A stretch of DNA of 64,000 bases from Brevibacillus composti (lineage in GTDB: Bacteria; Bacillota; Bacilli; Brevibacillales; Brevibacillaceae), in assembly GCF_016406105.1 (NCBI RefSeq), contig NZ_CP066308.1, forward strand, positions 2,839,501 to 2,903,500, in the 5' to 3' direction. A model generated the notes under the pieces. The model did not search any database, was not told the DNA's origin, and saw nothing but the letters and a program-made list of their open reading frames with translations. How positions within the stretch are numbered: position 1 is the first letter of the stretch; each line of letters begins with the position of its first letter. Shown piece by piece: positions 34,118-48,412 of the stretch. The position numbers and the translations under genes were made by a program.

Positions 34118-34166
34118 ACGATGCCCCCACGCGGAATCGAACCACGAACTGATCATTACGAGTGAT
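34118..34166. repeat. attL: orphan 3' half of tRNA-Thr
   Basis: This 49-bp copy is identical to 50538-50586. On the minus strand it reads from the anticodon loop to the 3' end of the tRNA. No 5' half adjoins it. Confidence 0.92.
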
Positions 34167-34188
34167 GCCCGTTAACAATACGATACCT

Positions 34189-34283
34189 AAACGTTGATAC
34201 TACGCGATTTATTTCGTTCCTCAACGTTCATTTTACGCAAAGTGTAGCGTACATTCAAGCGGAACATGTACCGATCATTCAAC
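34189..34283. promoter_or_regulatory. Left integrase arm-type sites
   Basis: AAACGTTGATAC at 34189-34200, GCAAAGTGTAGCGTACATTC at 34237-34256 and a TGTACCGATCATTC motif near 34267 each recur near the right end (50517-50528, 50477-50496 and about 50427) in the same orientation. Their position just inside each core site is that of arm-type sites for a tyrosine integrase. Confidence 0.6.
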
Positions 34284-34348
34284 CGGTGGCCCATCCGTTT
34301 TTGCACAAAAAAAGACCCCGCCAGCATTGAGCCGGTCGGGGTTCGTTG

Positions 34349-34804
34349 TTACTGACGGTACATCACTACGCGATCCAATATGAGGTACGCCTGCCCATCG
34401 TTCATGGACGCCACGATCACGCGGTCGCCCGGCTTGAGTACGTCCTCGAACGTGAGTTCAACGTAGGCGTGGCGGTATTCCGTGATCGGATTGCCCTCGA
34501 CCATATCGTCCGTATCGAGTCCGTCGCGTTCGATCTTGTCTCCGAGGTCGCGCTCCGCCAGTTCCTCATGCGTGATCGTTACGATGCGTTTGTGCCGCGT
34601 CAGGTGTTCGGCCACTACGAGATCGTCCGCTTCGAGGTCTAGCGCCATGTTGTCGATACGGATGCGGAGGTCGGGCGGCGGGGAGACGACGGTGGCGAGT
34701 TCCAGGCGGTCAAATCTGTTGTATCCGATCCTGGCGATCATTTGTTTCAGTTGGCTAACCCCGCTGCCTTCGAGTCGTGTCATCCTACTCATCCTCCCTG
34801 TCAT
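34349..34804 (-). CDS. DUF2577 tail/baseplate protein
   Basis: This 151-aa protein ends with KPGDRVIVASMNDGQAYLIL before DRVV, the hallmark of DUF2577 proteins of PBSX-like tails (XkdR region). The middle is charged and the family is usually encoded close to baseplate genes. Its ATG overlaps the tape measure stop by four bases (ATGA) with AAGGAG 7 bases upstream; a later ATG at 34783 is also possible. No other baseplate gene follows: the element ends 180 bases on. Confidence 0.78.
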   Translation of the reverse strand: MTGRMSRMTRLEGSGVSQLKQMIARIGYNRFDRLELATVVSPPPDLRIRIDNMALDLEADDLVVAEHLTRHKRIVTITHEELAERDLGDKIERDGLDTDDMVEGNPITEYRHAYVELTFEDVLKPGDRVIVASMNDGQAYLILDRVVMYRQ

Positions 34805-36615
34805 GCGAGCGCTCCTTGGAGTTCGCGGGCCAGTCGGTACGCAATACGCTGGATGTCCGCTTCTTCTCTAACGGTCAAGCCGTTCACCGTAACGTTAACA
34901 GTGGGAGCACCGCCACGACCACCGCCGCCCGAATACTCCCGGTTTTCTTGCGCGGTCAAGACGCGTTCGCCTTTGTGAAGTCTCGCTTTTACGCCATCCC
35001 TAGGCACATACTCAATCCCATGGTAGAACGGTTTTTCTGGCCCTTCTTCGTCCGGAACCGACAACGTGAGCGGAGCGGGTACGAGTAACGCGCCAAACTT
35101 CGCAGGCATCGGCGGGCCGTGCATGACCGGCTTCTGCTTGTTGAGGAAGTCATACGCCTTCTTGTAGCCTTCGCTCACGTAATCCTTCGTCAATGCGACC
35201 GAATTAAGCGCTGGCATCCCGTGCAGAATCGCTTGACCGATTGGATTTTCCTTCATGCCGTCGAGAAATCCGGAGATCATCGACGATGCAATCTGACTGC
35301 CAATTCTGAGTCCGGCTTTTCCCATTTCCGGAGCCACTGTTTCCAGTCCGTCGAGGATTGTCTTCGTAACTCGTCCCGTCGCTTTTTCGAGTTGCTCGTT
35401 ACCCTTCCGGTCGTACCACTCCGAGAAGGACTTCGTAAGGTCTTCGATGATAAAGGCCACTTTAGCATGAATATCCGGCAGACTGTTAAACGTGGAATTG
35501 GAGAAGAAGTGACGGTCAAGGTAGTCCCAGGCTTTCTCTGCGGACGTTAGTAATCCGTCAAATCCTCCTGCCAATAGTCTCGCGCCACGTTCAGTAAAGG
35601 ACCTGAATCCCGGCCCTTCCAGCCACTTGTTCGCGTCAATAAGTAACGTCTTGATTTCCTCCAGGGCTCCCGTTCCCATCTTGGCGAGAGAAGCAGAGAC
35701 GTTGCTTTTGAACATGTCCCATTGAGCATTCGCAGTCTTATTGACTCGTGTCACAAATTGTTGCGTATACCCCATGTCATTGAGGACTTTATCGAGCGCA
35801 GTGATCTTTTTCTCTAGCGTGTCAGCTCCCTTGAAGGCTTTCTTTAACAAATTGCGAGGGATATCGAAACGGTCCTGGATACTCACAAGGTCGTCAGAGA
35901 GGGCTTCCCTTAAGGCATAGGCCGCCCCTTCTGCGCCCTGCAACGGTTTTGAAAGCGCCAGTCGTTCGGAAATATCGGTGAGTTTATCGATATGCTTGAG
36001 GTCCTTTGTCAGCGGCAAGTACGCTTTCCCCATCGTAAGGTAGTCGGATTCCGACAAGGTACTCGCCAGCCCCTTCTTGTAGAGCATATCGAAGAGGTCG
36101 GCCGCTTTTTTCTGATCGTTAACAAGCGCCTCTAGCGTGATTTTATCGGTCTCCATACGGGCGGCCCCGCCGATAGTGGCCGTCAGGAAAGAATCAGTCG
36201 CGCGATACAGCCCGTAGCCCGCCGCCAATCCGACAACCCCGCCGATGGCCGATTTCAGCCCGAGGACGGCCCCTTTAGCCCTTGCCGCGCCACCCGCGAT
36301 CCCGTCAAATGAATTGCTTACGTTCCTATTCGCTGATGAGAACCGGTTGAACTCCCCTCGTAAGCTACCGGTGGTATCACGGAAAGCTGTCATTGAACGC
36401 TTCAAGAGGCCCACAGTATTGTCTGTAGTTAGAAATGACTTTTTCAGAGCTTCCGTAGATTTTCCAGTAAGGTCTTGAATATCCGTAGTCTTTGCAAGCA
36501 TCCTACTCAACTGGCTTAAAGATTGATCCATTTTGTTTATTTGTGAAGTTGCACGTTTCGTCGGCGCGGTCATGTTATCGATCAACTTTAGCCGGGCCGT
36601 TAAATCGTATGCCAT
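34801..36615 (-). CDS. Phage tail tape measure protein (short)
   Basis: This 604-aa protein starts MAYDLTARLKLIDNMTAPTK, the usual opening of tape measure proteins. It has a coiled-coil N-terminal third, a hydrophobic AGYGLYRATDSFLTATIGGA segment, a long helical centre and the typical end RLHKGERVLTAQENREY with a Gly-rich patch and NVTVNGLTVREEADIQRIAY. Tape measure length sets tail length, so it implies a fairly short tail. The start at 36615 has an AGGTG site and overlaps the upstream gene by 41 bases. Confidence 0.85.
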   Translation of the reverse strand: MAYDLTARLKLIDNMTAPTKRATSQINKMDQSLSQLSRMLAKTTDIQDLTGKSTEALKKSFLTTDNTVGLLKRSMTAFRDTTGSLRGEFNRFSSANRNVSNSFDGIAGGAARAKGAVLGLKSAIGGVVGLAAGYGLYRATDSFLTATIGGAARMETDKITLEALVNDQKKAADLFDMLYKKGLASTLSESDYLTMGKAYLPLTKDLKHIDKLTDISERLALSKPLQGAEGAAYALREALSDDLVSIQDRFDIPRNLLKKAFKGADTLEKKITALDKVLNDMGYTQQFVTRVNKTANAQWDMFKSNVSASLAKMGTGALEEIKTLLIDANKWLEGPGFRSFTERGARLLAGGFDGLLTSAEKAWDYLDRHFFSNSTFNSLPDIHAKVAFIIEDLTKSFSEWYDRKGNEQLEKATGRVTKTILDGLETVAPEMGKAGLRIGSQIASSMISGFLDGMKENPIGQAILHGMPALNSVALTKDYVSEGYKKAYDFLNKQKPVMHGPPMPAKFGALLVPAPLTLSVPDEEGPEKPFYHGIEYVPRDGVKARLHKGERVLTAQENREYSGGGGRGGAPTVNVTVNGLTVREEADIQRIAYRLARELQGALA

Positions 36616-36961
36616 ATTTTTCACCTGCCTTTCGATAGACATCCGCTTCAATCCGCTCGTCCGCCCGGCCAATCGCAAGCAACGCCTTCAATATCGACTC
36701 GCGAACCTTCCGTACAGGCCGAGCATGCTCCGGGTACTGTTTCCGCAATGCTGCCAGCCGTTCGGCTCCTCGATAGACTTCGGCTAGCTTCTGCCCATAT
36801 AGCGAAAGGTTTTCGTCATCCTGGCGTTTTAGGTAGGCCGCCAGCTTGCGGAGATTTCGGAAGTCCGACGGCTGAAACTCCGCCATTCCGTTCAAAGAGC
36901 TGTCTAGGCGGTCGAGCTCCGCACTTGCAGCCGCGATGAGTTGGTTGATATCGGCACTCAC
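36575..36961 (-). CDS. Hypothetical protein between terS-like and tape measure genes
   Basis: This 128-aa helical protein (MSADINQLIAAASAELDRLD at the start, IRFNGPAKVDR at the end) sits where tail assembly chaperones lie in phages, directly upstream of and overlapping the tape measure gene. I do not recognise its sequence, and I see no programmed frameshift site. The GTG at 36961 has GGAGG 7 bases upstream. Confidence 0.6.
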   Translation of the reverse strand: MSADINQLIAAASAELDRLDSSLNGMAEFQPSDFRNLRKLAAYLKRQDDENLSLYGQKLAEVYRGAERLAALRKQYPEHARPVRKVRESILKALLAIGRADERIEADVYRKAGEKYGIRFNGPAKVDR

Positions 36962-36963
36962 CG

Positions 36964-37404
36964 TCACTCCTCCCCGTTCACCATTTCGGCCAATTTCCGA
37001 ATCTCGGCCGCGATCTCCGCGTCGGACTTACGCGGTAACTTCGATTCGCTCTCATTTTCGTACAGATGGCGCTCGGTAATTTCGCCTTGGAGCTTGTACC
37101 ACAACTCGATAGCTTTGATCCTGGGTTCCGGCATACGGATGAGTTTCAGCAGAGCCGAATCGACTTCGCTGCTATAGGCGTGGAGCTTATCGCGCGATAC
37201 CATGCGGTGGTATTCATTGAACTCCGGGTTCTTCATCCACTCGTACAGCGTCGATTTTGCGATGCCAATTTCTTCGGCTAGTTGGTCTTTGGTCATTTTT
37301 TTGCCCTCGGACAGTTCGCAAAACTCATTCGCTACGAGCAACTGCGCCGCCCGCCGTTGCTGGTCGGTTAGTCCACGCCCCACGTCGGATCGTCGTTTTG
37401 TCAT
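36964..37404 (-). CDS. Probable phage terminase small subunit (phBC6A51 HTH type)
   Basis: This 146-aa protein has a helix-turn-helix near residues 40-60 (MTKDQLAEEIGIAKSTLYEW) and a C-terminal helical region, like phBC6A51-family small terminases that recognise pac sites. No large terminase gene is present in the element. PICIs of Gram-positives often carry only the small subunit to redirect a helper's packaging motor. GGAG lies 8 bases before the ATG at 37404. A general DNA-binding protein remains possible. Confidence 0.6.
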   Translation of the reverse strand: MTKRRSDVGRGLTDQQRRAAQLLVANEFCELSEGKKMTKDQLAEEIGIAKSTLYEWMKNPEFNEYHRMVSRDKLHAYSSEVDSALLKLIRMPEPRIKAIELWYKLQGEITERHLYENESESKLPRKSDAEIAAEIRKLAEMVNGEE

Positions 37405-37416
37405 ACCCATCTCTCC

Positions 37417-38007
37417 TTATATCAGGTGTTCAATCTCGCGGTAACGACGCCATGCGGCGTCTAGTAACGCTTGGTACGCTTCGGGATCGTTTTTTAAGCG
37501 TTCGACCTCCGCTTTTATCGCGGCTTCTTGGACGTATGGTGGCTCCTCGCTCTTGTGGTTGATTCCGTCCTTCCACGGCGACCGGTTTATATTCCGGACA
37601 AAGTGGTTAAGCATCCGCATTTCCCGCCTGGTGTCGATCTCATCCTCGCGTCCTTCCTCGATAGCCTCGTTGATTTTGTCCATCGTATGCAGGGCTCTCT
37701 TCACGCTACTACCGATCAGCCCGACGTTAACCCCGACGCTCATGCTCGCCAGCTTCGCCGTCTCCCGGTACTTCTCTAATCTTGAAGTGTCCACGCGAAC
37801 TAGCGATCCGGCAGCGATAACGGCCGCATACTGCACCGCGATCTTGTAGAACGGGGCCAACTCTTCGGCCAGGATGATGCCGAGCGGAATGGGTACGAAA
37901 TTCTCCGGAGGCTCCGGCGGCTTCCCTTCCGCGATCCGAGCGGCCGCGACCCGTTGCCTCAGTTCCTCCGTCCTAGCCCGAATATCTTCGATTGATTCGA
38001 ACGCCAT
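37417..38007 (-). CDS. Hypothetical protein, helical (196 aa)
   Basis: The product starts MAFESIEDIRARTEELRQRV and ends RRYREIEHLI. It is mostly helical, with a mildly hydrophobic centre (FYKIAVQYAAVIAAGSLVRV). I do not recognise it. Its start overlaps the stop of the tiny membrane protein upstream, so translation is likely coupled. Confidence 0.6.
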   Translation of the reverse strand: MAFESIEDIRARTEELRQRVAAARIAEGKPPEPPENFVPIPLGIILAEELAPFYKIAVQYAAVIAAGSLVRVDTSRLEKYRETAKLASMSVGVNVGLIGSSVKRALHTMDKINEAIEEGREDEIDTRREMRMLNHFVRNINRSPWKDGINHKSEEPPYVQEAAIKAEVERLKNDPEAYQALLDAAWRRYREIEHLI

Positions 38008-38117
38008 CATTCACCCTCCCTCAGTCGGTTCCATAACGTCACGCCCACGGTGGCCGCCATTAAAAATCCGGCCATCATGCCCGCGAAGAATGCGGCCGGT
38101 ATCAGTGCGATTTCCAT
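38007..38117 (-). CDS. Tiny membrane protein (36 aa)
   Basis: The ORF MEIALIPAAFFAGMMAGFLM then AATVGVTLWNRLREGE has GGAGG 6 bases upstream and one membrane helix. Its TGA overlaps the ATGATG start of the next gene. It resembles small phage membrane proteins such as holin-like peptides only in size. Confidence 0.6.
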   Translation of the reverse strand: MEIALIPAAFFAGMMAGFLMAATVGVTLWNRLREGE

Positions 38118-38170
38118 TCGTTCGCCTCCGTAAAAAAGTAAAGCGCCGCCCGTTTGGACGACGCTCAGAC

Positions 38171-38422
38171 CTATTCGTATCGATTACCGAGTACATCGCG
38201 TATATGGACATAATCGAGATACCTTTGCTTCATTTTGACGTATCTGGCTGCGTCCTCTGGATTCTTCGTTTTTAATGCTTGATCGTGCATCGCTGCTAAT
38301 TGACCGACGTTTAACCTCTCGCCGTCTACAGAAACAGTCTCCAGGTCAATTCCAGTAGTCATTTCTACTACTACTGTGTCGCTATCAATAAAGGTTTTAT
38401 TATCAATCGTACAAATTCTCAC
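38171..38422 (-). CDS. Hypothetical 83-aa protein
   Basis: A GTG start with GAGGAGGAG upstream opens an 83-aa ORF: MRICTIDNKTFIDSDTVVVE to RDVLGNRYE. It has a beta-rich first half and a helical second half with LAAMHDQALKTKNPEDAARY. I do not recognise it. Confidence 0.6.
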   Translation of the reverse strand: MRICTIDNKTFIDSDTVVVEMTTGIDLETVSVDGERLNVGQLAAMHDQALKTKNPEDAARYVKMKQRYLDYVHIRDVLGNRYE

Positions 38423-38464
38423 TGTTTCTCCTCCTCGGAAAGTGAAATGAATAAAGACGCCGGA

Positions 38465-39364
38465 TTACTCCGACGCCTGACTTCCTGCTCTCAATTGTTC
38501 GATAGTGCGAGTCATACTACGCCATCTTTCGGCAAACTCGCGCTGCTCTTTTTCGCGTTGCTCCTCCGCCGCTCTGGCTGCTTTAGCTTGTGGAGTATCT
38601 TCTGGATGAACGTAGTCATCCGGCTTCAAATCCGGTTTGTCAGCGAAAAATTCTTCCGGCTTGTTCAAATAGCTGGCGTATTCCCTTCCCAGAGTTTCCG
38701 TCATGCTTTCAACTACTAATCCGGAAAAGAGAGAGCCCCTTTCGATCATCGAATCAGCGAGATCCAAAATTTGTCTTGCTTCCCTCGCGTCATCACTCAG
38801 AGAAATTTGATCTAGTCGTTCAAACATATCGCCGAGGATCGCCCTGTATTTCGCACTTTCTGTTCCTGCCGATTCCAAGATAGGGGAGGCGATTTGCTGG
38901 AACTCGTCACGAACGCGAAATGCGAAATATCTATCGTCTGCTGATTTCACATGTTTTTGAATAAACGCTTCGACTTTCTGTTTGGCTGTTTCTGCGCGAC
39001 TGGTAAGCATCAGCTCGGTCTTTAATGCCTTTAACTCGTCCTCGAACCTCTCCAACTTTACGGCATCGGGCTTCTTAGCTTTTGCGTATACGATTGCGTC
39101 AGCGCCTTCTTTAGCTTTTCTCAGCTCCTCCATATATACTTGTTTCAGTTTGTATGCGTCCTGCAAAAACTCGATCCCGTGTTTTTGTTTTAACGCGGCC
39201 ACGGCTTTAGTTCTTCCAATTTCTGACAACTCGCGATTCCTCATAATTTCGCCCATTTCGGCTTGGACCTTTCTTTTCCGTTCCAACGCCTCCGAGGCTG
39301 TGAGCGATTCAGCGATACGTGCCTTATCAATGTGCGAGCGAATTTGTTGAATAGTTTTTGCCAT
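38465..39364 (-). CDS. Coiled-coil hypothetical protein (299 aa)
   Basis: The protein starts MAKTIQQIRSHIDKARIAES and is almost wholly helical and highly charged, with long coiled-coil stretches and an acidic/Ala-rich tail (EEQREKEQREFAERWRSM). GGAGGAG precedes the ATG. A scaffolding-type or regulatory role could be imagined, but I see no signature. Confidence 0.6.
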   Translation of the reverse strand: MAKTIQQIRSHIDKARIAESLTASEALERKRKVQAEMGEIMRNRELSEIGRTKAVAALKQKHGIEFLQDAYKLKQVYMEELRKAKEGADAIVYAKAKKPDAVKLERFEDELKALKTELMLTSRAETAKQKVEAFIQKHVKSADDRYFAFRVRDEFQQIASPILESAGTESAKYRAILGDMFERLDQISLSDDAREARQILDLADSMIERGSLFSGLVVESMTETLGREYASYLNKPEEFFADKPDLKPDDYVHPEDTPQAKAARAAEEQREKEQREFAERWRSMTRTIEQLRAGSQASE

Positions 39365-39400
39365 ATAGAATCTCCTCCAAAAATTGATTTTGTTTCAGTA

Positions 39401-39856
39401 TTAAATCAGCGCCACAACCGTACGCATCTCCGGCTCATCGACCGGCCCCGAAATCCCATCGCGAATCAACCCCGCCAACTGGCGGACGGCCTGGCGGATT
39501 TCCGCCCGCTTTATGTCGATGGTCACATCGTTACCGTACCGGACGGCCCCGCGCAGGATCACCGTTGCAATGCGGAGGTCGGCTGCGATAGAGAGATACC
39601 GGGCGCAAAGCAGCCGTTCCCGGCTCCCGGAGTCATCGTAAGAAACTCGCGGCATGTGACCGGTGACGTCCGGCTTCCTCTCCGGCCTGGCCGGTTTGAG
39701 ACGGTGCCAGCGCTTGCGAAACTCGTCCTCGTAATCACGGAAGGTATCCGCGATCATGCCGGACTGACGCGGGAACTCGTTGCGTAACCGTTCGTCATCG
39801 TTAACCATCGTGTATAGACGTTGTGCCTCCGCTAGTAGTGCGCGCGCCTGCTTCAT
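39401..39856 (-). CDS. Hypothetical 151-aa protein
   Basis: The protein MKQARALLAEAQRLYTMVND to PEMRTVVALI is helical and Arg-rich. Its ATG overlaps the stop of the cold-shock-domain gene by four bases, so the two are coupled. I do not recognise it. Confidence 0.6.
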   Translation of the reverse strand: MKQARALLAEAQRLYTMVNDDERLRNEFPRQSGMIADTFRDYEDEFRKRWHRLKPARPERKPDVTGHMPRVSYDDSGSRERLLCARYLSIAADLRIATVILRGAVRYGNDVTIDIKRAEIRQAVRQLAGLIRDGISGPVDEPEMRTVVALI

Positions 39857-40194
39857 CGGATCACCTTCACGTTGACGGCTTCCGGACTCTTGCCGCCTTC
39901 CTTCACGTCAAAGCAGATACGCGAGCCGGAACGGAGCTCTCCGCTGATTACGTTTCGCGCATGGACGAATACGCCACATACGGTAAAGCCGAATCCCTTC
40001 GCGTCGTTGAACCATTTCATCTTTCCGCAGCGCTGGCCGTTGGCTGGCGGCTGTTTCGGCTCATGGCGCGGACTTACGAATCCGGTCGACTCGATCTCCG
40101 GGAAGTAGTCCGGTTGGTCCCACGTCGATACGCGTACCCTTCCGGTGGCGCGTTCCTCAAACGACGGTGCTCGTTCGGCTACTTGCTGGCTCAC
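39853..40194 (-). CDS. Cold-shock-domain protein with N-terminal extension
   Basis: This 113-aa protein ends in a cold-shock domain (about 55-113) with GKMKWFNDAKGFGFTVCG (RNP1 KGFGF) and VFVHARNV (RNP2), so it should bind single-stranded RNA or DNA. The first 50 residues, with Arg and Pro, are an extra extension not seen in CspA-type proteins. It starts with GTG, AAAGGAG upstream. Phages and satellites carry such proteins occasionally. Confidence 0.75.
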   Translation of the reverse strand: MSQQVAERAPSFEERATGRVRVSTWDQPDYFPEIESTGFVSPRHEPKQPPANGQRCGKMKWFNDAKGFGFTVCGVFVHARNVISGELRSGSRICFDVKEGGKSPEAVNVKVIR

Positions 40195-40349
40195 TCTAAC
40201 CTCTCCTTTTTAGGTGTGTATTTGGTACGCAAAACGTCGATTTCGCCCTATTTCCGCCTCGTTTCCGAAGGCATCCGATAGACGGGAAAGGGAACGTATC
40301 CCCGCGCCTCTAAACCGCCAAAATTGCTTGTTTGCGTATACGTTTCGGA

Positions 40350-40565
40350 CTATTCGCGTGCAACATCCACGCCGAGTATCCGGCGCATCGACCGCTTCCT
40401 CTGATTTGGTACGCGATACTGGACCGCGATCCGCTTGCCTGCGCGGTAATACCGGGCCATTGGCTCAATGTCGCTGTAGTAGCGGCGGATTCGCGCCATA
40501 ATGCCGGTGTCTTCGGTGTAGGCAGCGAGATAGTCCGGGTCCAGGCGCCAAAGGGCGTTGTTCAT
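40350..40565 (-). CDS. Hypothetical 71-aa basic protein
   Basis: The ORF MNNALWRLDPDYLAAYTEDT to MRRILGVDVARE is basic in its second half. The ribosome binding site is weak (AAGAG abutting, GAGGTG farther up). The 155-base gap downstream (40195-40349) holds no visible feature. Confidence 0.45.
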   Translation of the reverse strand: MNNALWRLDPDYLAAYTEDTGIMARIRRYYSDIEPMARYYRAGKRIAVQYRVPNQRKRSMRRILGVDVARE

Positions 40566-40645
40566 CTCTTGACTTTTTCACCTCGTTTGACGTAAAATGA
40601 TGATGGGTTTTTATTGCCAAAAACTATAATTGAGTCAAAAATAAA

Positions 40646-40858
40646 CTAAGCGGGAAGTTCCCGGATTTCTCGTATGCGCTCGGGTGTGAGTCCAAACGCG
40701 GCTACTATCCGAATTGCCAGGCCACGGCTGACGTCCTTCCTGTTCCTCTCAATCCCGCTAATCATCGAGTGATGCACTCCGATCTTGCTCGCAAACTGTT
40801 CTTGCGTCATTCTCTCTAAAGCCCGCAACTTGATCACAATTTCACGGTCAATAACCAT
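40646..40858 (-). CDS. XRE-family helix-turn-helix regulator (70 aa)
   Basis: This is a minimal Cro/CI-type domain: VIKLRALERMTQEQFASKIG then VHHSMISGIERNRKDVSRGL. GGAGG lies 7 bases before the ATG at 40858. It follows the CGNR-like gene on the same strand. Confidence 0.8.
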   Translation of the reverse strand: MVIDREIVIKLRALERMTQEQFASKIGVHHSMISGIERNRKDVSRGLAIRIVAAFGLTPERIREIRELPA

Positions 40859-40937
40859 CCTTCTCCCTCCGTCTTGATTTTTTCTTTTTTCTGCGACTAC
40901 ATAGGCAAAATAAATAGCCTGTGTAGCCCTTCCCCAC

Positions 40938-41864
40938 CTATATAGCATGGTTGTCCAGACTGTGGCGATGATTGCGATAGTTCTGCCATTCCCGCGCCCG
41001 CATCCATTCCGCCGTCACGTCCCGGACATTGTACGTTACGATCTTGCCCGGCTCCTCCGCCTCCCGCCACATCCCCCTGGCTCGCGGCCTATGTCGTTTG
41101 CCCTCGTACTCCGACTCCGGAACCCATTTCAGCGCCCGCCACCCGTTCCTCTTGCCGCGCTCCATCTTCGCGTCCTTCGTCGGCGTTTCCGAATAGTGCG
41201 GAATCTCCCGCAGTTCCACCGGACTATAGAACGGGTATTCGAGCATATGGCGCTCCTGGTCCCGCCTTGTGCGCGGATCGCCCGTTCGCTGGATTCGCTT
41301 CCGTATCTTATCTCGGTATCGGGCGCATTCATCGCTACACGTTTTCCCCATATTGTTCCGACTTCTATCAAGGAAAAACCATTCACAGCCTTCGCAACGC
41401 TTAACCCGGCGGCGATTACGCGGCCCGATCCGTAAGTGCCCGTAATGGCGCAAGACCACAAAGTCGGCGGCGCCTGACCCGATGTACGGCCGCTCCTCCG
41501 CCGCGTATTCGTCCGGCACCCTCGTTTGTTTGAGGCCGCGCGCGTGATCCTCCGCCAGTATGTAGTCCGCCAGGTGGTCGAGCAGGGACGGGACTGAGGG
41601 GCGACCGTCAATGAGCGTATGAGCCGACGTGCTGACCGCAAGAAGCGGCTTGTCCGTGACTCGTTCCCACCGATCCTCTGCCTTAACGTGTTCGAGCTGC
41701 GCCCACTCTTCCCCGGCGAGGTCATCCGTTATCTGGCGGACGAGTCCGATGCGGGAGGCGAGCGGCGTTTCCGAGTGCTTGCGGTAGTGTGCGCGCTTGT
41801 GGTTCGGGAAGCCCCGGCGGGCGATGGCGGTGAGCCCTGCGTGTTGAATCGCTTGTTTATTCAA
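40938..41864 (-). CDS. CGNR-like zinc finger protein
   Basis: This 308-aa protein has, near residues 155-195, KRCEGCEWFFLDRSRNN then KTCSDECARYRDKIRKRIQR, which matches the C-terminal CGNR zinc finger pattern with four Cys. The rest is not recognised; the C-terminal third is rich in Arg and Trp. It probably binds nucleic acid. A TTG start with GGAGGTCGTGGC upstream opens it. Confidence 0.6.
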   Translation of the reverse strand: MNKQAIQHAGLTAIARRGFPNHKRAHYRKHSETPLASRIGLVRQITDDLAGEEWAQLEHVKAEDRWERVTDKPLLAVSTSAHTLIDGRPSVPSLLDHLADYILAEDHARGLKQTRVPDEYAAEERPYIGSGAADFVVLRHYGHLRIGPRNRRRVKRCEGCEWFFLDRSRNNMGKTCSDECARYRDKIRKRIQRTGDPRTRRDQERHMLEYPFYSPVELREIPHYSETPTKDAKMERGKRNGWRALKWVPESEYEGKRHRPRARGMWREAEEPGKIVTYNVRDVTAEWMRAREWQNYRNHRHSLDNHAI

Positions 41865-42037
41865 GCCACGACCTCCTTCGTAGCCATGTGACGCCGACGT
41901 CGCCCGGCTATCATGGTTATTGGTTTCATTCTTCTACGCGAATAACATATCGTATATCCTTTACCGCGCAATTCCTTTCTCGCGTATACTCTTTTATTTA
42001 TGAGGAGCGTTCGCGAGTGAAGGCATTTATGCCGTAA

Positions 42038-42118
42038 TGAGCGATATCAGTATGGTTCTCGTTATAATGGCTATGGTTCTCGTTATAATGGCTCTTGTTT
42101 AAAGATGGTTCTTGTTAA
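42038..42118. repeat. Iteron-like array 1 beside winged-helix gene 1
   Basis: After TGAGCGATATC (42038-42048) come repeats of ATGG(T/C)TCT(C/T)GTT with ATGG at 42052, 42067, 42073, 42088 and 42105, giving 15-21 base spacing. The same TGAGCGATATC plus repeats occur at 44374-44434 after winged-helix gene 2. This is a candidate replication origin or autoregulatory site. The rest of the 41865-42037 gap shows nothing. Confidence 0.6.
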
Positions 42119-42153
42119 CGTGACTAGTAACCACGTGACGCTTACCTCGTGAC
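42118..42153. repeat. Second iteron set, (A/T)CGTGAC
   Basis: Three copies of (A/T)CGTGAC start at 42118, 42133 and 42147, with spacing 15 and 14. They adjoin array 1 and run up to the stop of winged-helix gene 1. Confidence 0.5.
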
Positions 42154-42155
42154 GT

Positions 42156-42515
42156 TTAGCTACTGTTTCGTTCCTTATTCCCGAATTGCAGCTCAGATTC
42201 GGGCGCGATGGTATACACGTTATTTGCCCACGTTCCGGGACCCGGTTCTCTCCGCCTCCGCACGCTGACTATCGGCTTTCCATTCCACCTGTATTTAACA
42301 AGTCGACTGACGCGGCGACTAGCGCTTTCCCGCGTGATCCCTAGCCTTGCCGCTATCGACTCCATCGACGGATAGCACTCGCCATTTTCGTCCATGTAGG
42401 CGGCCAGGACGCAGAGGGTTTGCCACCTCTCCGCGCCCATGTCCGCGATGAGTCCGGAATGTATCGCGTCAACGTACGTTTTATAGAAAATCCGCGTTTC
42501 CTTTTGTTCGTCCAT
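42156..42515 (-). CDS. Winged-helix protein 1, possible replication initiator
   Basis: This 119-aa protein has KETRIFYKTYVDAIHSGLIA, MDENGECYPSMESIAARLGI and VSRLVKYRWNGKPIV, the layout of the initiator N-terminal winged helix of RepA_N-like proteins. A paralogue lies at 44435-44887. Iteron-like repeats lie just past its 3' end. ATG at 42515 has AGGAG 9 bases upstream. A repressor role is the main alternative. Confidence 0.6.
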   Translation of the reverse strand: MDEQKETRIFYKTYVDAIHSGLIADMGAERWQTLCVLAAYMDENGECYPSMESIAARLGITRESASRRVSRLVKYRWNGKPIVSVRRRREPGPGTWANNVYTIAPESELQFGNKERNSS

Positions 42516-42543
42516 TTCCCGCAACTCCTCCGTCCTAATTCGT

Positions 42544-42620
42544 GATATAATCGTCGTACAATCGTTTATTTACCGTAGGAGCACGCCGCCAGCCCGCCAG
42601 CTTACGGCGTGGTTTTTTTT
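42544..42620 (+). ncRNA. Candidate short plus-strand RNA
   Basis: An extended -10 TGATATAAT (42543-42551) is followed 30 bases on by a perfect CACGCCG/CGGCGTG stem and eight Us (42582-42620). This predicts a transcript of roughly 60 bases, divergent from winged-helix gene 1. The terminator has a U-run only on the plus side. Confidence 0.45.
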
Positions 42621-42624
42621 CGTT

Positions 42625-43167
42625 TTACGAGGCAAGAATTTCTATTTTTTCCGCTTGCAATTTCTCGTTCAACTCCTGACGTAAGTCAATAAAATCATCG
42701 TAAGCCTTTTGTGCTTTCGTTAGTAATCTCATTAAGTTAGCTTTCCGCCCCTGCCTTAGTTTAGCATCGACTTGGAAAATGGCGAGTTGGGCTTTATCGA
42801 AAGAGTCCGCTCGGGAAATTAATCTCCTCTTTAAACGGGAGTCTGTCAACCTTTCGGCTATTTCCTTCATCATTAACATCTTGTGCTGGATGTTGTGAGA
42901 TGCGCGATAGAACTCTTGAAGTCTTTTGCTAAAAGCATCTTCGTCGTCAGGGCTAATTTCAGCCATACACCTGAACGCGATCAATTGGTGTGTGTATTGA
43001 GCCGCTGCCGCAATCATCGTAGTAAGTAGCAGATCATACGTATCATACCTCGTTGTATCTAAACCCAAATGCTCTGCCCTGGCAGTGACGAAATTTCGTT
43101 CGGTCTCCAAGCGTTGCATTGCTTTTAATAGAGGTGAAAATGGACTCGCTTGATTATGGCTACTCAT
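42625..43167 (-). CDS. Hypothetical helical protein (180 aa)
   Basis: The product starts MSSHNQASPFSPLLKAMQRL and is helical, with MLMMKEIAERLTDSRLKRRL and a charged end KLQAEKIEILAS. I start at 43167 because GGGAGAG lies upstream; the frame stays open to 43290. It is divergent from the XRE gene at 43378 and shares its operator region. Not recognised. Confidence 0.6.
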   Translation of the reverse strand: MSSHNQASPFSPLLKAMQRLETERNFVTARAEHLGLDTTRYDTYDLLLTTMIAAAAQYTHQLIAFRCMAEISPDDEDAFSKRLQEFYRASHNIQHKMLMMKEIAERLTDSRLKRRLISRADSFDKAQLAIFQVDAKLRQGRKANLMRLLTKAQKAYDDFIDLRQELNEKLQAEKIEILAS

Positions 43168-43292
43168 TTCAACATCTCTCCCATATCGTTTATTTTTGCT
43201 TGCCTTTAGCTCGTCCGACCGATCACTTCCGTTCACATGGCTGATCGCCTCCAAATGGGGAATCTCTTTCCAAAACCAATAATAACGCATAA

Positions 43293-43344
43293 GCGATATT
43301 TTTGTAAATATCTTATTTGCGATATTTTTACGTTTGATGTATTC
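43293..43344. promoter_or_regulatory. Operator/promoter region of the 43378 repressor
   Basis: GCGATATTTTT occurs twice (43293-43303 and 43319-43329), with an inverted AAATATCTTAT between. A plus-strand promoter TTGCGA-17 bases-TATTCT overlaps the second copy. It fits autoregulation by the XRE protein and control of the divergent gene. Confidence 0.55.
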
Positions 43345-43377
43345 TACTCTTAAACACGGAATGGATGGAGCGATAAC

Positions 43378-43731
43378 ATGAGTAAGATAAGCCTGTTTTC
43401 AGCTATTGGTGCTGACGCAGTAAAAAGCGCAACGGAATCCGATCCTTACGACAAACCGACCATCTACGTTGTCGAGATTTATCTAAAGGACGTTTTAAAA
43501 CGTCGAGGAATAAAACAAAAAGAACTCGCTCAAATGACTGGATTACGACCAAACGCAATAACAAACCTATGCCGCGGCTACAATGAACGAGTAAGCCTCG
43601 ACCACATTGGGCGGATTGCTACTGCATTAGGGATCACAGACATCTCTGAAATTATGAGGCTCGTAGAGTACGAAGAGGCCGATTTCTTCAACATGTACAA
43701 TTCGATTCACCGTGATGATCCCGAAGAGTGA
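43378..43731 (+). CDS. XRE-family repressor-like protein (117 aa)
   Basis: This protein has a helix-turn-helix at about 44-72 (VLKRRGIKQKELAQMTGLRP, NAITNLCRGYN) with a 35-residue N-terminal extension. It is one of only two plus-strand genes of appreciable size in the element, both regulator-like. Its 3' end overlaps the DUF3102 gene by 25 bases tail to tail. Confidence 0.8.
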   Translation: MSKISLFSAIGADAVKSATESDPYDKPTIYVVEIYLKDVLKRRGIKQKELAQMTGLRPNAITNLCRGYNERVSLDHIGRIATALGITDISEIMRLVEYEEADFFNMYNSIHRDDPEE

Positions 43732-44297
43732 CATATCTCCGTTCCCGTACGCACCTCGCGGATCGGCTGCGGCTGTTCCGCTATCGATTCGAGAGTATCG
43801 CGAAGGACTTGCGCGGATTCTTCCGCCCTCTGTCGCGCCTCCCTCTCGCGCTTCAACTCCGCCTTGACTTCGCGGAGCTCGCGGACGGTCATCTCGTCGA
43901 CCGTTTTGACTTCGCCGGTGGACGGGATTACGTGCGGGCGTTCGCGGTCTTCTGGTGAGAGTGTGGCGATCTCGTAGAGGGCGCGGAGACCGTGGTGTTG
44001 GTACGTGCCAACATCGCCCAACCCCTCGAAGACCGCGATAAATCGATGTGCCTGTGTTCTGTCAAAATCGACATGCTCCTCTAGCCATTTTATCCATCCG
44101 CCCGTTGACTCCCGTTGCTGCGCGAGCATGCGATCCTCAATACAGTCAGAATCGGTCTTGGCGTCTCTGACTTTCTTTAATCGCCTCCCAATCTCGAATA
44201 TAGCCTCGCCCGCGACTCTCTTGTAGGCGTTGATCTCAGCCGTGATTACTTGTAGATCGTTGGAGAGCGCGGCTTCCTGCTTGGCTTGCACATCCAT
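43707..44297 (-). CDS. DUF3102 protein
   Basis: This 196-aa protein has the DUF3102 core INAYKRVAGEAIFEIGRRLK, then GGWIKWLEEHVDFDRTQAHR and FIAVFEGLGDVGTYQHHGLR, followed by a charged coiled coil (VKAELKREREARQRAEESAQ). Members are found on phages and mobile elements; function unknown. GGAGG precedes the ATG. Confidence 0.75.
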   Translation of the reverse strand: MDVQAKQEAALSNDLQVITAEINAYKRVAGEAIFEIGRRLKKVRDAKTDSDCIEDRMLAQQRESTGGWIKWLEEHVDFDRTQAHRFIAVFEGLGDVGTYQHHGLRALYEIATLSPEDRERPHVIPSTGEVKTVDEMTVRELREVKAELKREREARQRAEESAQVLRDTLESIAEQPQPIREVRTGTEICHSSGSSR

Positions 44298-44373
44298 CAT
44301 TACCTCCCCTTTCTTCGCGTACATCTTGTCGCGTGATCGTATCCTTATTAATGACTGACCTCGCGAACGACAG

Positions 44374-44434
44374 TGAGCGATATCTTTTATCTAGTTTAAA
44401 GATGGCTCTTGTTTAAAGATGGTTATTGTTAGTG
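44374..44434. repeat. Iteron-like array 2 beside winged-helix gene 2
   Basis: TGAGCGATATC (44374-44384) is followed by TAGTTTAAAG, ATGGCTCTTGTTTAAAG and ATGGTTATTGTTA, with ATGG at 44402 and 44419 (17 bases apart). It mirrors array 1 in sequence and place. Confidence 0.6.
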
Positions 44435-44887
44435 TCAAGGAGAGCCATATACGGATCGACCCGTGTCGGCTCCGCTTGACATGGCTTCCGCCTCCCCACT
44501 AAATATCGCTAGCTGACTGACCGGCAGCACCGTATACCGCGTGTTATCGAACCGCTGACTCCCGTCCTCCCTCCCCTTCGTCGCGTGCACCAACGGCCGT
44601 CCCCGCCACCTGTACGCGAGCAGCGACTTGATCCGCGCCGCCGCTGTCTGCAGGGATACTCCGAGCCTGTGCGCGATCAACTCTTGCGTCGGATAGCACT
44701 CGCCGCGCTCGTCCATGAACGCCGCGATCACGCAGAGCGTCCGCCAGTTCTCGTCGCCAATGTCCGCGAGTAGTCCGGAGTGTACCGCGTCCACGTACAT
44801 CTTGACGAAGATGCGCGTTTCACGGCGTCCGGTTGTGACGGAATATTCCGACTGCGTTTCGATGGATACGAGGTTATGTTCGGTCAC
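44435..44887 (-). CDS. Winged-helix protein 2, paralogue of 42156-42515
   Basis: This 150-aa protein shares with its paralogue ETRIF-x-K-x-YVDA-x-HSGL, TLCV-x-AA-x-MDE-x-GECYP and LGV/I helix residues (RRETRIFVKMYVDAVHSGLL, ERGECYPTQELIAHRLGVSL). It starts with GTG, GGGAGG upstream. The N- and C-terminal ends are longer than in copy 1. Possible replication initiator or regulator. Confidence 0.6.
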   Translation of the reverse strand: MTEHNLVSIETQSEYSVTTGRRETRIFVKMYVDAVHSGLLADIGDENWRTLCVIAAFMDERGECYPTQELIAHRLGVSLQTAAARIKSLLAYRWRGRPLVHATKGREDGSQRFDNTRYTVLPVSQLAIFSGEAEAMSSGADTGRSVYGSP

Positions 44888-45104
44888 ACTGCGCCCTCCC
44901 TTTCGGCACGTACGCGCGAATTGCGTATTTGGCGATCTCTCGCCGGACCGTCTCGTCGAACTCCGCCTGGCTCGGGAAGATGCGCAGTTCGGATATAACG
45001 TAGTCCTTCGCCATGTTATCGCGGGCCATTAACGCTTGCTTGCGAGTTGGATACGTACGCTTCATTTTGTTACGGAAAAACAGGACGTACAGCGATTCCG
45101 TCAT
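44874..45104 (-). CDS. Hypothetical 76-aa protein
   Basis: The ORF MTESLYVLFFRNKMKRTYPT to VPKGRAQCDRT has GGAGGTGACC upstream and overlaps the start of winged-helix gene 2 by 14 bases, so they are probably coupled. Basic; not recognised. Confidence 0.6.
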   Translation of the reverse strand: MTESLYVLFFRNKMKRTYPTRKQALMARDNMAKDYVISELRIFPSQAEFDETVRREIAKYAIRAYVPKGRAQCDRT

Positions 45105-45133
45105 TTACGTGGTCACCTCCATATGGTAAAATC
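45105..45133 (+). promoter_or_regulatory. Plus-strand promoter for the small AAAC-repeat gene
   Basis: TTTACG (45105-45110) is followed after 17 bases by TAAAAT (45128-45133), pointing into the region with the small ORF and terminator. A CGTAAC/GTTACG hairpin lies at 45187-45204. Confidence 0.45.
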
Positions 45134-45223
45134 TTGAATAGTCCGAATTTCCCGCTGATACTTGGTTACCGCCAGCGCCTAAGGCCGTAACGACTAAGTT
45201 ACGCGCGGAGAGGAGGATTGCCC

Positions 45224-45329
45224 ATGAAACAAACAAACAAACAACTACACAACTACGATTGTCATCCGCCTCGATAGTGCTGTATGGGCGGCGCTACTGG
45301 TCGAGGTGCTCCTCAGGCTGCTGTCCTGA
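45224..45329 (+). CDS. Small ORF with an (AAAC)4 tract, possibly phase-variable
   Basis: With GAGGAGG upstream, the ATG opens only 17 codons as sequenced (stop TAG at 45275-45277). The ATG is followed at once by four AAAC units. With three (or six) units the same ATG would read through to a TGA at 45327-45329. That product would be a 33-residue peptide, MKQTNNYTTTIVIRLDSAVW then AALLVEVLLRLLS, with one hydrophobic helix. The TGA lies in the terminator stem. The gene may be off in this genome; a leader peptide is the alternative. Confidence 0.4.
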
Positions 45330-45338
45330 GGGGCTTTT
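45311..45338 (+). terminator. Terminator of the small AAAC-repeat gene
   Basis: CCTCAGG/CCTGAGG with a CTGCTGT loop is followed by GGCTTTT. Confidence 0.6.
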
Positions 45339-45407
45339 CGGTTTCTATAGACTGATTACTCCCTGGAATTAAAAAACTGGTACACCATCCCGTTATTTTT
45401 TTCGAAT

Positions 45408-45638
45408 TTATATATCTGTCCGCAAAAAAAATAACGCCAGCCCCGAAAAAAAAATTTCCGAAACCTCCCGCACGCACGTTCGTATAAATAAGCGTAAGAC
45501 AAAACGGAAGCCCCTCGCAAGGCGTTCCCTCACCGGTTTGGCGCCCGGCAAAGGTACGAGAGGCTCCGAAATGCCCTCCCCGTTGGCGTTCGTTCCTGGC
45601 GTTGGCGCGCCGGAACCCGGATCATCGGGCGGCGTCAC
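45408..45638 (-). CDS. Hypothetical 76-aa protein at the end of the coupled operon
   Basis: A GTG follows directly on the TAA of the upstream gene, with GTGAGG 5 bases before it. The product has a Pro/Gly-rich start (TPPDDPGSGAPTPGTNANGE) and a hydrophobic, Phe-rich end. It could be real or a chance frame. Confidence 0.35.
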   Translation of the reverse strand: MTPPDDPGSGAPTPGTNANGEGISEPLVPLPGAKPVRERLARGFRFVLRLFIRTCVREVSEIFFSGLALFFLRTDI

Positions 45639-46064
45639 TTACGCCTCACGGATCACAAGCGTATAGCCGGTCATCTCGGCGAACTTGGTCCGGACGACCT
45701 CGATCTCCTCGCGCGGAATTTTGGCGGCGCCGAACGCTTTTACGACGAACTGGCCTGCGTCCTTATGCAACGAGTGCGATTTGCTCACGTTCCAGATTGG
45801 TGGCAGGATCGACGCGAGCATTTCGGACATGTGCGTGGGCTTCGGTTCGGTCGCGTAGGTGACGGGCAGGCCGATCTCGGCGGACAGTTGCGCGATGAGG
45901 GCCGAGTGGCGTTCGGCGACCTGCGGTGTGACGAAGTGGAGTTCGAGGTACGGGCCGTACTGGCCGACCTTGTAGGCGGTTTTGTAGACGGTCAGATTGT
46001 GGTGCGATGCCCAGGCGCGGGCGCGCTCCATGGCGGTGAATTGGTCAAGTGCAACAGCGTTCAT
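45639..46064 (-). CDS. Hypothetical 141-aa protein
   Basis: The product MNAVALDQFTAMERARAWAS to AEMTGYTLVIREA is a mixed alpha/beta protein; I do not recognise it. AGGGGG lies upstream of the ATG at 46064, which overlaps the stop of a 35-aa ORF by four bases. Confidence 0.6.
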   Translation of the reverse strand: MNAVALDQFTAMERARAWASHHNLTVYKTAYKVGQYGPYLELHFVTPQVAERHSALIAQLSAEIGLPVTYATEPKPTHMSEMLASILPPIWNVSKSHSLHKDAGQFVVKAFGAAKIPREEIEVVRTKFAEMTGYTLVIREA

Positions 46065-46168
46065 TGGGATACCCCCTGTTTCGATTCTTGCGCGACAATG
46101 ACGGCCAGCATAAGGCGGAGTTTCATGCGCAGCGGCATTTGACGCCACAAACGAGCCTTGACGTTCAT
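46061..46168 (-). CDS. Tiny amphipathic peptide (35 aa)
   Basis: ATG at 46168 has GGAGGTGGCC upstream and overlaps the previous stop by four bases; its own stop overlaps the next ATG by four. The product MNVKARLWRQMPLRMKLRLM then LAVIVAQESKQGVSQ is basic and amphipathic. Confidence 0.5.
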   Translation of the reverse strand: MNVKARLWRQMPLRMKLRLMLAVIVAQESKQGVSQ

Positions 46169-46449
46169 ACGGCCACCTCCGCCAGCCCGTCGACCGAAAA
46201 ACCGAGCTCGTGCAACGTTTCGAGGCCGACTTCGCAGCATCCGGTGGTGACGCGCGGACTCACTTCCGGCAGGATCGCGTGAAACTCCTGCGGCGAGAGC
46301 GTGACGCGGGGGCGGTCCGGGTGGTCAACGAAATACACGTTCAGCCAGCCGACGATTGTGCGCTGAAACATGACTTGATATTTGAGGGCGCGGTCGACAA
46401 CGATCCCCCTCCGTTTGTGTCTTGCGAAATTATAGGCGATAAATGGCAT
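46165..46449 (-). CDS. Hypothetical 94-aa protein
   Basis: The product MPFIAYNFARHKRRGIVVDR to FSVDGLAEVAV has GGGGAGG upstream. It is the first gene of the second coupled group, 72 bases after the first. Not recognised. Confidence 0.6.
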   Translation of the reverse strand: MPFIAYNFARHKRRGIVVDRALKYQVMFQRTIVGWLNVYFVDHPDRPRVTLSPQEFHAILPEVSPRVTTGCCEVGLETLHELGFSVDGLAEVAV

Positions 46450-46521
46450 AACTTTTCCTCCCCTTTTTCGGAATGTTCCGTATTATTTGCTCGCGGGTCC
46501 TCCCCGGCTAGGGCGGCCGGT

Positions 46522-46857
46522 TCATCGGATCAGCACGATAAAATCGAAGTCGGCGGCCTCGGCCGTGCGTAGAAAGAACCGCTCGTAAAAGTCCCAGGCG
46601 GACATCGAGCGTAACTTGCCCACCACGCGCGGAATGTCTTCGGGGTCATCCGTCAACCCTCCGTAAGAATGGCCGGAGGTGGCGATGTAAAGGCCTGGCT
46701 CGTTCGTTGGGTCGACGGTCAGGAACGCAAGCTCCTCGCCGTCAACGAGATAGGCCGCGATGTCTGGCGCGATGAGGTAGCCGGGAAAACGGTCGGGGCC
46801 GAACTCGCGCTCGTAGTCGTCGGACAGGCGGAGCTTGATTCGCGGGAACTGCGTCAT
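46522..46857 (-). CDS. Hypothetical 111-aa protein
   Basis: The product MTQFPRIKLRLSDDYEREFG to DFDFIVLIR is acidic, with a beta-rich middle. Its ATG overlaps the upstream stop by four bases. Not recognised. Confidence 0.6.
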   Translation of the reverse strand: MTQFPRIKLRLSDDYEREFGPDRFPGYLIAPDIAAYLVDGEELAFLTVDPTNEPGLYIATSGHSYGGLTDDPEDIPRVVGKLRSMSAWDFYERFFLRTAEAADFDFIVLIR

Positions 46858-47057
46858 AGGGCGGTCCCCCTCTCGGCTCGTTCGCGTTCGATGCGTTCGT
46901 GAAGCGCACGTTTCCATTCGAACAGCGCGGCCAGCCTTTCAGATCGACCGGGAGTGCCGGGGCGGATCGCGAAGACTTCCGATACCTGGCGCGTGTAAAA
47001 AGCGATGGCGTCGACGGTTGAGAGCGTGGAGATGTCGGGGAGTTGCGGCGCGCTCAC
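46854..47057 (-). CDS. Hypothetical 67-aa protein
   Basis: I place the start at the GTG at 47057, which overlaps the stop of the 31-aa ORF by four bases (GTGA). The product MSAPQLPDISTLSTVDAIAF to RIERERAERGTAL has a helical, Arg/Glu-rich end. Not recognised. Confidence 0.5.
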   Translation of the reverse strand: MSAPQLPDISTLSTVDAIAFYTRQVSEVFAIRPGTPGRSERLAALFEWKRALHERIERERAERGTAL

Positions 47058-47149
47058 GGATGGATCACGCTCCTTATCGATTCTACCAGGGCGGAGATCG
47101 CGATGATGAGTTCGGAAAAGGTAGTGATCCATTGCGGGCCTTGCTTCAT
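47054..47149 (-). CDS. Tiny peptide (31 aa), first of the coupled operon
   Basis: AAGGAGG lies 10 bases before the ATG at 47149. The product MKQGPQWITTFSELIIAISA then LVESIRSVIHP has a hydrophobic centre. It would be the first gene made from the repressible promoter at 47251-47279. Confidence 0.5.
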   Translation of the reverse strand: MKQGPQWITTFSELIIAISALVESIRSVIHP

Positions 47150-47225
47150 GTGTGGATTCCTCCTTCAATCATTGAGAATTTGGGGGATTTGAGGTATAAT
47201 CGTGTTAACAATTCAACATTTCACC

Positions 47226-47290
47226 ATGTCAACATCTTGTGCATGATTTTATAATACCCCTCGCTGCACATGATGTCAACATGTTGTGCA
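47226..47290. promoter_or_regulatory. Operator region with strong minus-strand promoter
   Basis: ATGTCAACAT(C/G)TTGTGCA occurs at 47226-47243 and 47273-47290. On the minus strand a perfect TTGACA (47274-47279) is followed after 17 bases by TATTAT (47251-47256), so its -35 lies inside the second operator. The divergent XRE gene at 47311 is the likely repressor. Confidence 0.7.
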
Positions 47291-47310
47291 AGTTTTGGGA
47301 GGAAATTTTT

Positions 47311-47523
47311 ATGGCGATTCGGTGCCGTCTTGGCGAGATTATGAAGGAACGCGGTCTTTCCAATAAAGAAGTCGTTGAACTTACCGGTGTGAGTAGGAAT
47401 ACAATTACGTCTCTCGCATCCTCCGCGACCAAGCGCATCGACTACGATACCCTCGACGCGATATGTAACGGTTTGAAGATAACCCCCGCAGAGTTTTTCG
47501 AATACACTCCGGACAAAAAATAA
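47311..47523 (+). CDS. XRE-family repressor-like protein (70 aa)
   Basis: This Cro/CI-type protein has CRLGEIMKERGLSNKEVVEL then TGVSRNTITSLASSATKRID. GGGAGG lies 8 bases before the ATG. It is divergent from the operon of small genes and flanked by paired operator-like repeats. By position it is a candidate for the master repressor (Stl-like role). Confidence 0.82.
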   Translation: MAIRCRLGEIMKERGLSNKEVVELTGVSRNTITSLASSATKRIDYDTLDAICNGLKITPAEFFEYTPDKK

Positions 47524-47561
47524 AGCCGCTCCCTTGTAAATGGGACGGCTATTTTAAGTTT

Positions 47562-48176
47562 TCACCCTCCGGTTTCTAGTCGCGTTAATCTCTTCAAGCG
47601 TCTCTCAAATGATGTTTCTTCCTTTACGTTCTTTGCCATGGCCTCCTCAACGTTCTTTATTGCCTCCCGATAGCGACCCGTCCTCTCGTAGAGCAAGGCC
47701 AACTCCTTAAATGCTGGATAGTTGGGAAGCGCCTTCCATCCTTCCTTTTTCAATCCCTCATAAAAATCATCGTGAATGGAAATGTCTTTTTTCAAGTATG
47801 TTTCTAAATGTTCAAACCAAGACGAATTTTGCGACCAAAGTCTCTTGTACAACTTCCAGCGAGTCATGTAAATGTAATGAAGCTCGACAATATCAGAGGC
47901 CGATACCGCTTCTCGCTCCGCGAAATCTAACAATTGGAGTTTGAATTCGAGATTCATAACCCCCGACGCAAAAATTCTAAGTAAGCCTTGCCTCGTCATT
48001 GAAGTTGCAGCGATCTCCCTAATATCAACGTTCTCCTTACCACCATTAACTTCATATTCAAAAACACAACGACAATCCTCTCTCTGCTCCTCAGTTAGTG
48101 ACAGCCACCATTCCTCCAGTCCCAAACACCTTATATAGCCTTTCGGTTTCTTATTCAAGAAACGTTTCCAGAACAT
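47562..48176 (-). CDS. Hypothetical protein with TPR-like C-terminus
   Basis: This 204-aa protein starts MFWKRFLNKKPKGYIRCLGL. Its end has a tetratricopeptide-like unit (PAFKELALLYERTGRYREAI then KNVEEAMAKN). GAGGTG lies 6 bases before the ATG. Its lower G+C than its neighbours suggests a different source. Not recognised. Confidence 0.65.
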   Translation of the reverse strand: MFWKRFLNKKPKGYIRCLGLEEWWLSLTEEQREDCRCVFEYEVNGGKENVDIREIAATSMTRQGLLRIFASGVMNLEFKLQLLDFAEREAVSASDIVELHYIYMTRWKLYKRLWSQNSSWFEHLETYLKKDISIHDDFYEGLKKEGWKALPNYPAFKELALLYERTGRYREAIKNVEEAMAKNVKEETSFERRLKRLTRLETGG

Positions 48177-48381: not shown

Positions 48382-48412
48382 GAGCGCCCTCATTGGGACG
48401 CCCCCGCCTTCT
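48382..48412 (-). terminator. Terminator of the serine recombinase gene
   Basis: On the minus strand GGGCGTCCC pairs, with one bulge, with GGGCGC and is followed by TCTTTTT; it overlaps the last codons. Confidence 0.5.

Follow-up and report, generated by a model that had tools for sequence, protein, structure and literature searches.

We have analyzed a stretch of 64,000 nucleotides of Brevibacillus composti (positions 2,839,501 to 2,903,500 of contig NZ_CP066308.1, hereafter the window) that contains an integrated, satellite-like island of 16.4 kb (34118..50586 between the outer ends of its att repeats, no strand assigned). The tRNA-distal end of this island is occupied by a gene for a tape measure protein (TMP) of 604 amino acids (34801..36615, minus strand, ATG at 36615) and a gene for a DUF2577 protein of 151 amino acids (34349..34804, minus strand), the predicted central spike of a contractile tail. 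Our analysis indicates that the island probably contributes to chimeric tails, in which the satellite would supply the axis (the TMP and here also the spike), a helper phage would supply the rest and the small terminase subunit (TerS) of the island would redirect packaging. We give this a probability of about 0.7, based on the anatomy of the element, on the selection acting on it and on one proven parallel, the PLEs of Vibrio. The replacement of the helper's TMP, a form of tail takeover, had been put forward in a first-pass annotation and is still the best reading; that the island depends on a helper, that its two proteins are incorporated into particles and that they keep out the TMP and spike of the helper is what we infer.

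The TMP matched the PHROGs family phrog_1068, annotated as tail length tape measure (E 7e-12), and phrog_33570 at its C-terminus, and the DUF2577 gene was identified by Pfam (PF10844, E 1.7e-21). Both frames are open and look functional, and the start of DUF2577 is located inside the stop of the TMP gene, an ATGA overlap that bears out the translational coupling noticed before. The TMP profile matched CD1366, the tape measure of diffocin, in its C-terminal part (PDB 8v3w, E 4e-16), and a profile of 21 DUF2577 proteins matched chain C of the same structure, the diffocin spike CD1369 (E 6e-4). Besides, the AlphaFold model of the window DUF2577 protein (pLDDT 74) has an N-terminal helix, an OB-type barrel and a hairpin insertion, and its first match with Foldseek was again the diffocin spike (E 1e-4, probability 1.00), followed by the needle protein of phiCD508. 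VIA-align gave Z values of 9.4 and 8.3 for these two structures, with lower values for the spikes of type VI secretion systems and R-pyocins. By profile and modelled fold, DUF2577 is the central spike of Gram positive contractile tails (diffocin CD1369, needle tip of phiCD508). The first-pass annotation had taken it for a baseplate gene; it is indeed a tail gene, but not a generic one, being the predicted spike contacted by the C-terminus of the TMP. The His-x-His iron-binding apex of diffocin was not found, there being no HxH in the window DUF2577; the motif is not required for the fold, and two relatives (L048 and L073) have HVH in the region of the hairpin. In diffocin the C-termini of the TMP trimer are anchored on the N-terminal helices of the spike (PMC11329794), and the same contact has been described in phiCD508 (PMC11948020). 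Since both proteins are homologous to diffocin parts that touch each other, the coupled genes would code for two contacting parts of the tail axis.

The way in which the two genes are arranged separates the island from phages. Among 47 DUF2577 loci from genomes and IMG/VR, all were in phage tail modules except that of the Brevibacillus panacihumi satellite described below, and the phage order was TMP - LysM/XkdP - XkdQ - DUF2577 - BppJ wherever the locus extended that far. The island shares with PBSX/Jimmer-type Brevibacillus myophages and with diffocin (CD1366-CD1369) a homologous TMP C-terminus and spike. However, in the phages examined the LysM/XkdP and XkdQ genes separate the two within a full tail operon (in diffocin, CD1367-CD1368 lie between the TMP and spike genes; PMC11329794), whereas in satellites they are adjacent, and here they stand alone. 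This pair, devoid of its phage spacer genes, recurs in satellites that belong to other species and to other families, which indicates more than chance.

The rest of the virion is missing. Neither Pfam nor PHROGs revealed a large terminase subunit (TerL), portal, capsid, tube, sheath, hub or wedge among the element proteins, and tblastn with phage marker proteins detected no tube, sheath or further baseplate gene in the element, in agreement with what had been read from the sequence at first sight. The window element thus has the combination known from the PLEs, a TMP encoded in the absence of tube and sheath. An exact repeat of 49 bp, corresponding to the 3' end of tRNA-Thr, is found at both borders, on the minus strand: the distal copy at 34118..34166 and the proximal one at 50538..50586, within tRNA-Thr (50540-50613). 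In the relative G024 nothing interrupts this tRNA-Thr; Sir2 lies to one side of it, and after about 1.1 kb comes a GntR gene, the same one that flanks the island in the window. The repeats together with this empty site indicate that the island is a 16.4-kb insertion with the TMP and DUF2577 genes inside. Its gene content includes an integrase, a serine recombinase, helix-turn-helix (HTH) regulators, replication-initiation-like proteins, TerS and a late operon, the last one, with the order TerS, small helical gene, TMP and DUF2577. The att repeats, the integrase, the empty site and the incomplete set of virion genes agree with the satellite-like nature assumed from the beginning.

Relatives were searched for with the TMP and then with a protein of 71 amino acids (40350..40565, minus strand), which is not a phage structural gene and serves as a marker of the satellite family across Bacilli, with matches in 18 of 399 genomes of the class. 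Seventeen satellites were compared in a marker matrix: that of the window, B. panacihumi W25, three from other Brevibacillus genomes (G004, G009, G013), nine from other families (G049, G072, G102, G123, G133, G153, G169, G185, G382) and three IMG/VR contigs (L207, L251, L255). As some loci end at contig ends, the absences are minimum statements. The TMP was found in 15 of the 17 (that of G072 counted through its PHROGs identification), the spike in six, a major capsid protein (MCP) in five and the XkdN chaperone of the TMP in three (L207, L251 and L255), the window not being one of these last, while TerL, portal, sheath, tube, XkdP, XkdQ, gpD and BppJ were found in none. The satellite of B. 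panacihumi W25 has the same gene order as the window, with identities of 76% for the spike, 81% for TerS and 45% for the TMP. The presence of the pair in similar islands, on which the first-pass annotation had made its proposal depend, is therefore confirmed for the TMP; the spike is optional, and two relatives hold something else in the TMP slot. Satellite TMPs fall into several unrelated PHROG families, and a tree of 24 TMPs requires three or more switches between satellite and phage on branches with good support, which indicates that the slot, instead of decaying, has received new TMPs from different phages. The TMP matches in G002, G005 and G008 turned out to belong to full prophages and were discarded. 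A scan of genome contigs with the TMP alone and scans of IMG/VR with a 299-amino acid protein of the island found nothing, and a scan with TerS gave one weak match.

Selection was estimated from the least saturated pair, G133 and G153. Over the first 340 codons of the TMP, dS was 0.22 and dN 0.022 (dN/dS 0.10). In the IMG/VR trio, partly near saturation, dN/dS was 0.12-0.19 for the TMP, 0.06-0.07 for the capsid and 0.06-0.09 for the chaperone; the comparison of the window TMP with that of B. panacihumi was discarded because synonymous sites were saturated. The TMP is under purifying selection, and the relaxed selection that would have marked the genes as debris was not observed. A remnant tail module of a former prophage, left beside an integrase, would agree with the phage origin of the genes, and the TMPs of G004 and G013 are still 67-78% identical to phage TMPs over their N-terminal part. 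But the same arrangement is found in several species and families with intact frames and a dN/dS of 0.1, the direct adjacency of TMP and spike was not found in the phages examined, and the att repeats and the empty site delimit a separate insertion. The origin from a nearby prophage is contradicted by these data, and we regard the idea of debris as very improbable and not tenable.

The TMP is also a site of exchange. The DNA of G133 and G153 is 92% identical up to about nucleotide 1119 of the TMP, where it changes abruptly; beyond this breakpoint G153 has the spike, a 197-amino acid protein and TerS, and G133 two other TerS-like genes. Similarly, L251 and L255 share 84-97% identity in their TMPs between about codons 400 and 650 and differ in the last 25 residues, and the spike gene is present in L255 and not in L251. 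The middle of the TMP has also been exchanged, giving lengths of 625, 642 and 699 amino acids. Both pairs are natural recombinants in which the C-terminus of the TMP was exchanged along with gain or loss of the spike. In diffocin, this end of the TMP makes the contact with the spike.

How such a satellite would work can be outlined as follows. The island would excise when a contractile-tailed helper phage of the PBSX/Jimmer type is active, and its own TerS would redirect packaging. Sheath, tube, hub, wedge, portal and large terminase would be taken from the helper, and the satellite would supply its own tail axis, a TMP trimer with the C-terminal helices seated on its own trimeric spike. As TMP and spike are co-produced from overlapping genes, the matched pair could nucleate tails with the core of the satellite and not that of the helper. 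What the satellite gains might be an escape from interference aimed at the TMP, or might lie in tail length or in entry. The same two genes might instead be weapons that titrate the tail chaperone, hub or tube of the helper and block its tails, the satellite particles using the helper TMP. Full-length TMPs could serve as decoys, and tail interference encoded by satellites does exist (Rta of PLE11, PMC12987554; Tai in PICIs, PMC11364771). Yet Rta is a dedicated inhibitor of 80 amino acids and not a full TMP (PMC12987554), the conservation found here covers the TMP including the C-terminal end that contacts the spike, a decoy needs no spike, and in the parallel that has been tested, the PLEs, the TMP of the satellite is built into the particles and transduction requires it. 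We consider this use of the genes unlikely.

Chimeric tails are compatible with a further benefit, altered delivery of DNA, which overlaps with them rather than being opposed. The satellite spike and the ejected TMP might open a way into cells that are poorly accessible to the helper, or escape a TMP-targeted exclusion. Both proteins are tail parts driven into the envelope, and near-identical satellites have gained or lost the spike and swapped the end of the TMP. However, receptor binding is normally carried out by fibres, which the satellite does not have, so that delivery as the main benefit is conceivable but doubtful. Slightly more speculative is the full picture of a previously undescribed satellite family of Bacilli that reprograms the core of the helper's contractile tail through an exchangeable cassette of TMP and docking spike, with particles that would enter by a route different from that of the helper (penetration tip, ejected TMP); we put it forward as a tentative idea.

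As to the helper, the capsid, scaffold, XkdN, TMP and spike genes of the satellites resemble one type, the PBSX/Jimmer-like Brevibacillus myophages such as the SYP-B805 prophage, and the closest tail genes to those of the window are from Brevibacillus sp. SYP-B805-type phages (spike about 60-68%). Myophage prophages that have a DUF2577 of their own are also present in G009 and G004. The B. composti genome itself has two apparently complete contractile-tailed prophages (L166, L167, L036), one PBSX-like (G000:C1 862000-897000) and one P2-like (1437000-1456900). The first-pass annotation also considered a change in tail length, but TMP lengths overlap between satellites (486-699 amino acids) and helper-type phages (552-685), and no claim of shorter tails is possible.

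Several observations weigh against chimeric tails. The first-pass annotation had suggested looking for helper prophages with a matching tape measure locus in the same genome, and neither of the two is close to the satellite's tail genes: the PBSX-like one (0.86-0.90 Mb) has an unrelated TMP of 576 amino acids and an only remotely related DUF2577, and the 720-amino acid TMP of the P2-like one (1.44 Mb) shares just the C-terminal motif, so both were rejected as helpers. The TMP is absent from G123 and G382, so it is not an absolute requirement of the family. In phages, the C-terminal types of the TMP do not track one-to-one with the spike sequence (N-terminal helix), and a strict pairing between TMP end and spike could not be upheld. 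Finally, most element proteins have no assigned function, so distant structural proteins could escape detection, and it is from its gene content that the island is taken for a phage satellite of Bacilli. The TMP slot of G123 holds a 440-amino acid protein (phrog_32308) with weak similarity to tail fibres, and in G382 there is a related frame, apparently broken (L145 7434-8756; L147 6838-8037).

Directly before the TMP is located a small gene (36575..36967, minus strand) for a protein of 130 amino acids modelled as four helices (pLDDT 84), with no match in PDB or in the viral library. Genes of similar size (about 90-130 amino acids) precede the TMP in 11 satellites including that of the window, with very low sequence conservation. 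That it might be a chaperone of the TMP is only a guess; three relatives have a gene of this type plus XkdN, and it is probably not the tail chaperone itself. Upstream in the operon, the TerS-like protein (36964..37410, minus strand; phrog_7344 E 9e-21, PF13022, phBC6A51 HTH) would act in packaging redirection, and its partner gene in several satellites codes for a 197-amino acid protein outside known families (37417..38010, minus strand). The 299-amino acid helical protein (38465..39364, minus strand) was found in four satellites free of capsid genes (window, L033, L110, L114) and in none of the five with their own SU10-type capsid protein; speculatively, it is a candidate capsid-size factor with a role comparable to Sid of P4. 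These five capsid proteins (L031 15265-16863, L153 8647-10190, L207, L251 and L255) share 55-63% identity among themselves or with that of the phage type. The satellites carrying them have a TMP and, in four of five, a scaffold, and lack portal and large terminase; TerS is present in three of the four with enough sequence.

Towards the tRNA, the island codes for a zinc-finger-like (CGNR) satellite protein of 308 amino acids (40938..41864, minus strand), a replication-initiation-like winged-helix protein (42156..42524, minus strand; phrog_12720) with a second copy at 44435-44887, and a divergent gene (43378..43731, plus strand) that from its translation would be an HTH repressor. A serine recombinase of the resolvase/invertase type (48390..48959, minus strand; PF00239 E 2e-47) adjoins the tyrosine integrase next to tRNA-Thr (49365..50375, minus strand; PF00589 E 9e-32). 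The G009 counterparts are 91% identical for the recombinase and 37% for the integrase, suggesting that the serine recombinase could have come in recently as a passenger or could provide a second system of recombination. Near the integrase end there is a variable slot, with a TPR-like protein in the window (47562-48185) and lipoprotein-like genes in L033 (2968-3558) and L032 (3526-4206), possibly cargo or defence. Promoter and terminator scans gave no more signals than shuffled sequence.

Among known systems, the island is like the Vibrio cholerae PLEs (PLE1, PLE4, PLE11), which have their own TMP by other tail-core genes, no tube or sheath, and a contractile-tailed host phage. In March 2026 it was reported that their TMP replaces that of the phage in the particles, with tails about 10 nm shorter, that deletion of tmp cuts transduction by 96-99.9%, that PLE11 virions contain the TMP and hub protein of the satellite, and that putative tmp genes exist in other Vibrio satellites and some cf-PICIs (Extended Data Fig. 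10) (PMC12987554). PLEs encode TMP, tail assembly chaperone (TAC) and baseplate hub (BhuB) against the lytic phage ICP1, whereas here there are TMP and spike, with XkdN/TAC only in three relatives. The window family, on this reading a separate Gram positive lineage, also differs in its host group (Bacilli), in TerS and in its integration and replication genes, and it is known from its genes, while the PLEs are experimentally proven. We set the window element beside the PLEs by description, as one that would work alike, without filing it as a PLE. The usual description of cf-PICIs is that of an own capsid with a stolen tail. Five related satellites are like them, again by description, in carrying an MCP; unlike them, the window element is devoid of capsid, portal and head-tail connector genes. 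Its size of about 16 kb, the integrase at one end, the divergent HTH regulator and a TerS for packaging redirection recall the SaPI-type PICIs; for regulation and replication, the window element has HTH repressor-like and replication-initiation-like genes only.

The principle of tail-core replacement by a satellite is thus already known since March 2026 from the Vibrio PLEs (PMC12987554). As far as we have searched the literature (subscription papers and preprints lay outside the search), the Gram positive satellite family with tail-core genes, the added spike and the exchange pattern are new. For a long time satellites were believed to take complete tails from their helpers, the PLEs being the first proven exception, in 2026. 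If the interpretation given here is true, the replacement of the tail core arose in Gram positive satellites as well, and the spike joins the list of swapped parts. The many natural recombinants, with their exchanged TMP ends, different ruler lengths and gains and losses of the spike, would allow asking why a parasite alters the inside of its vehicle.
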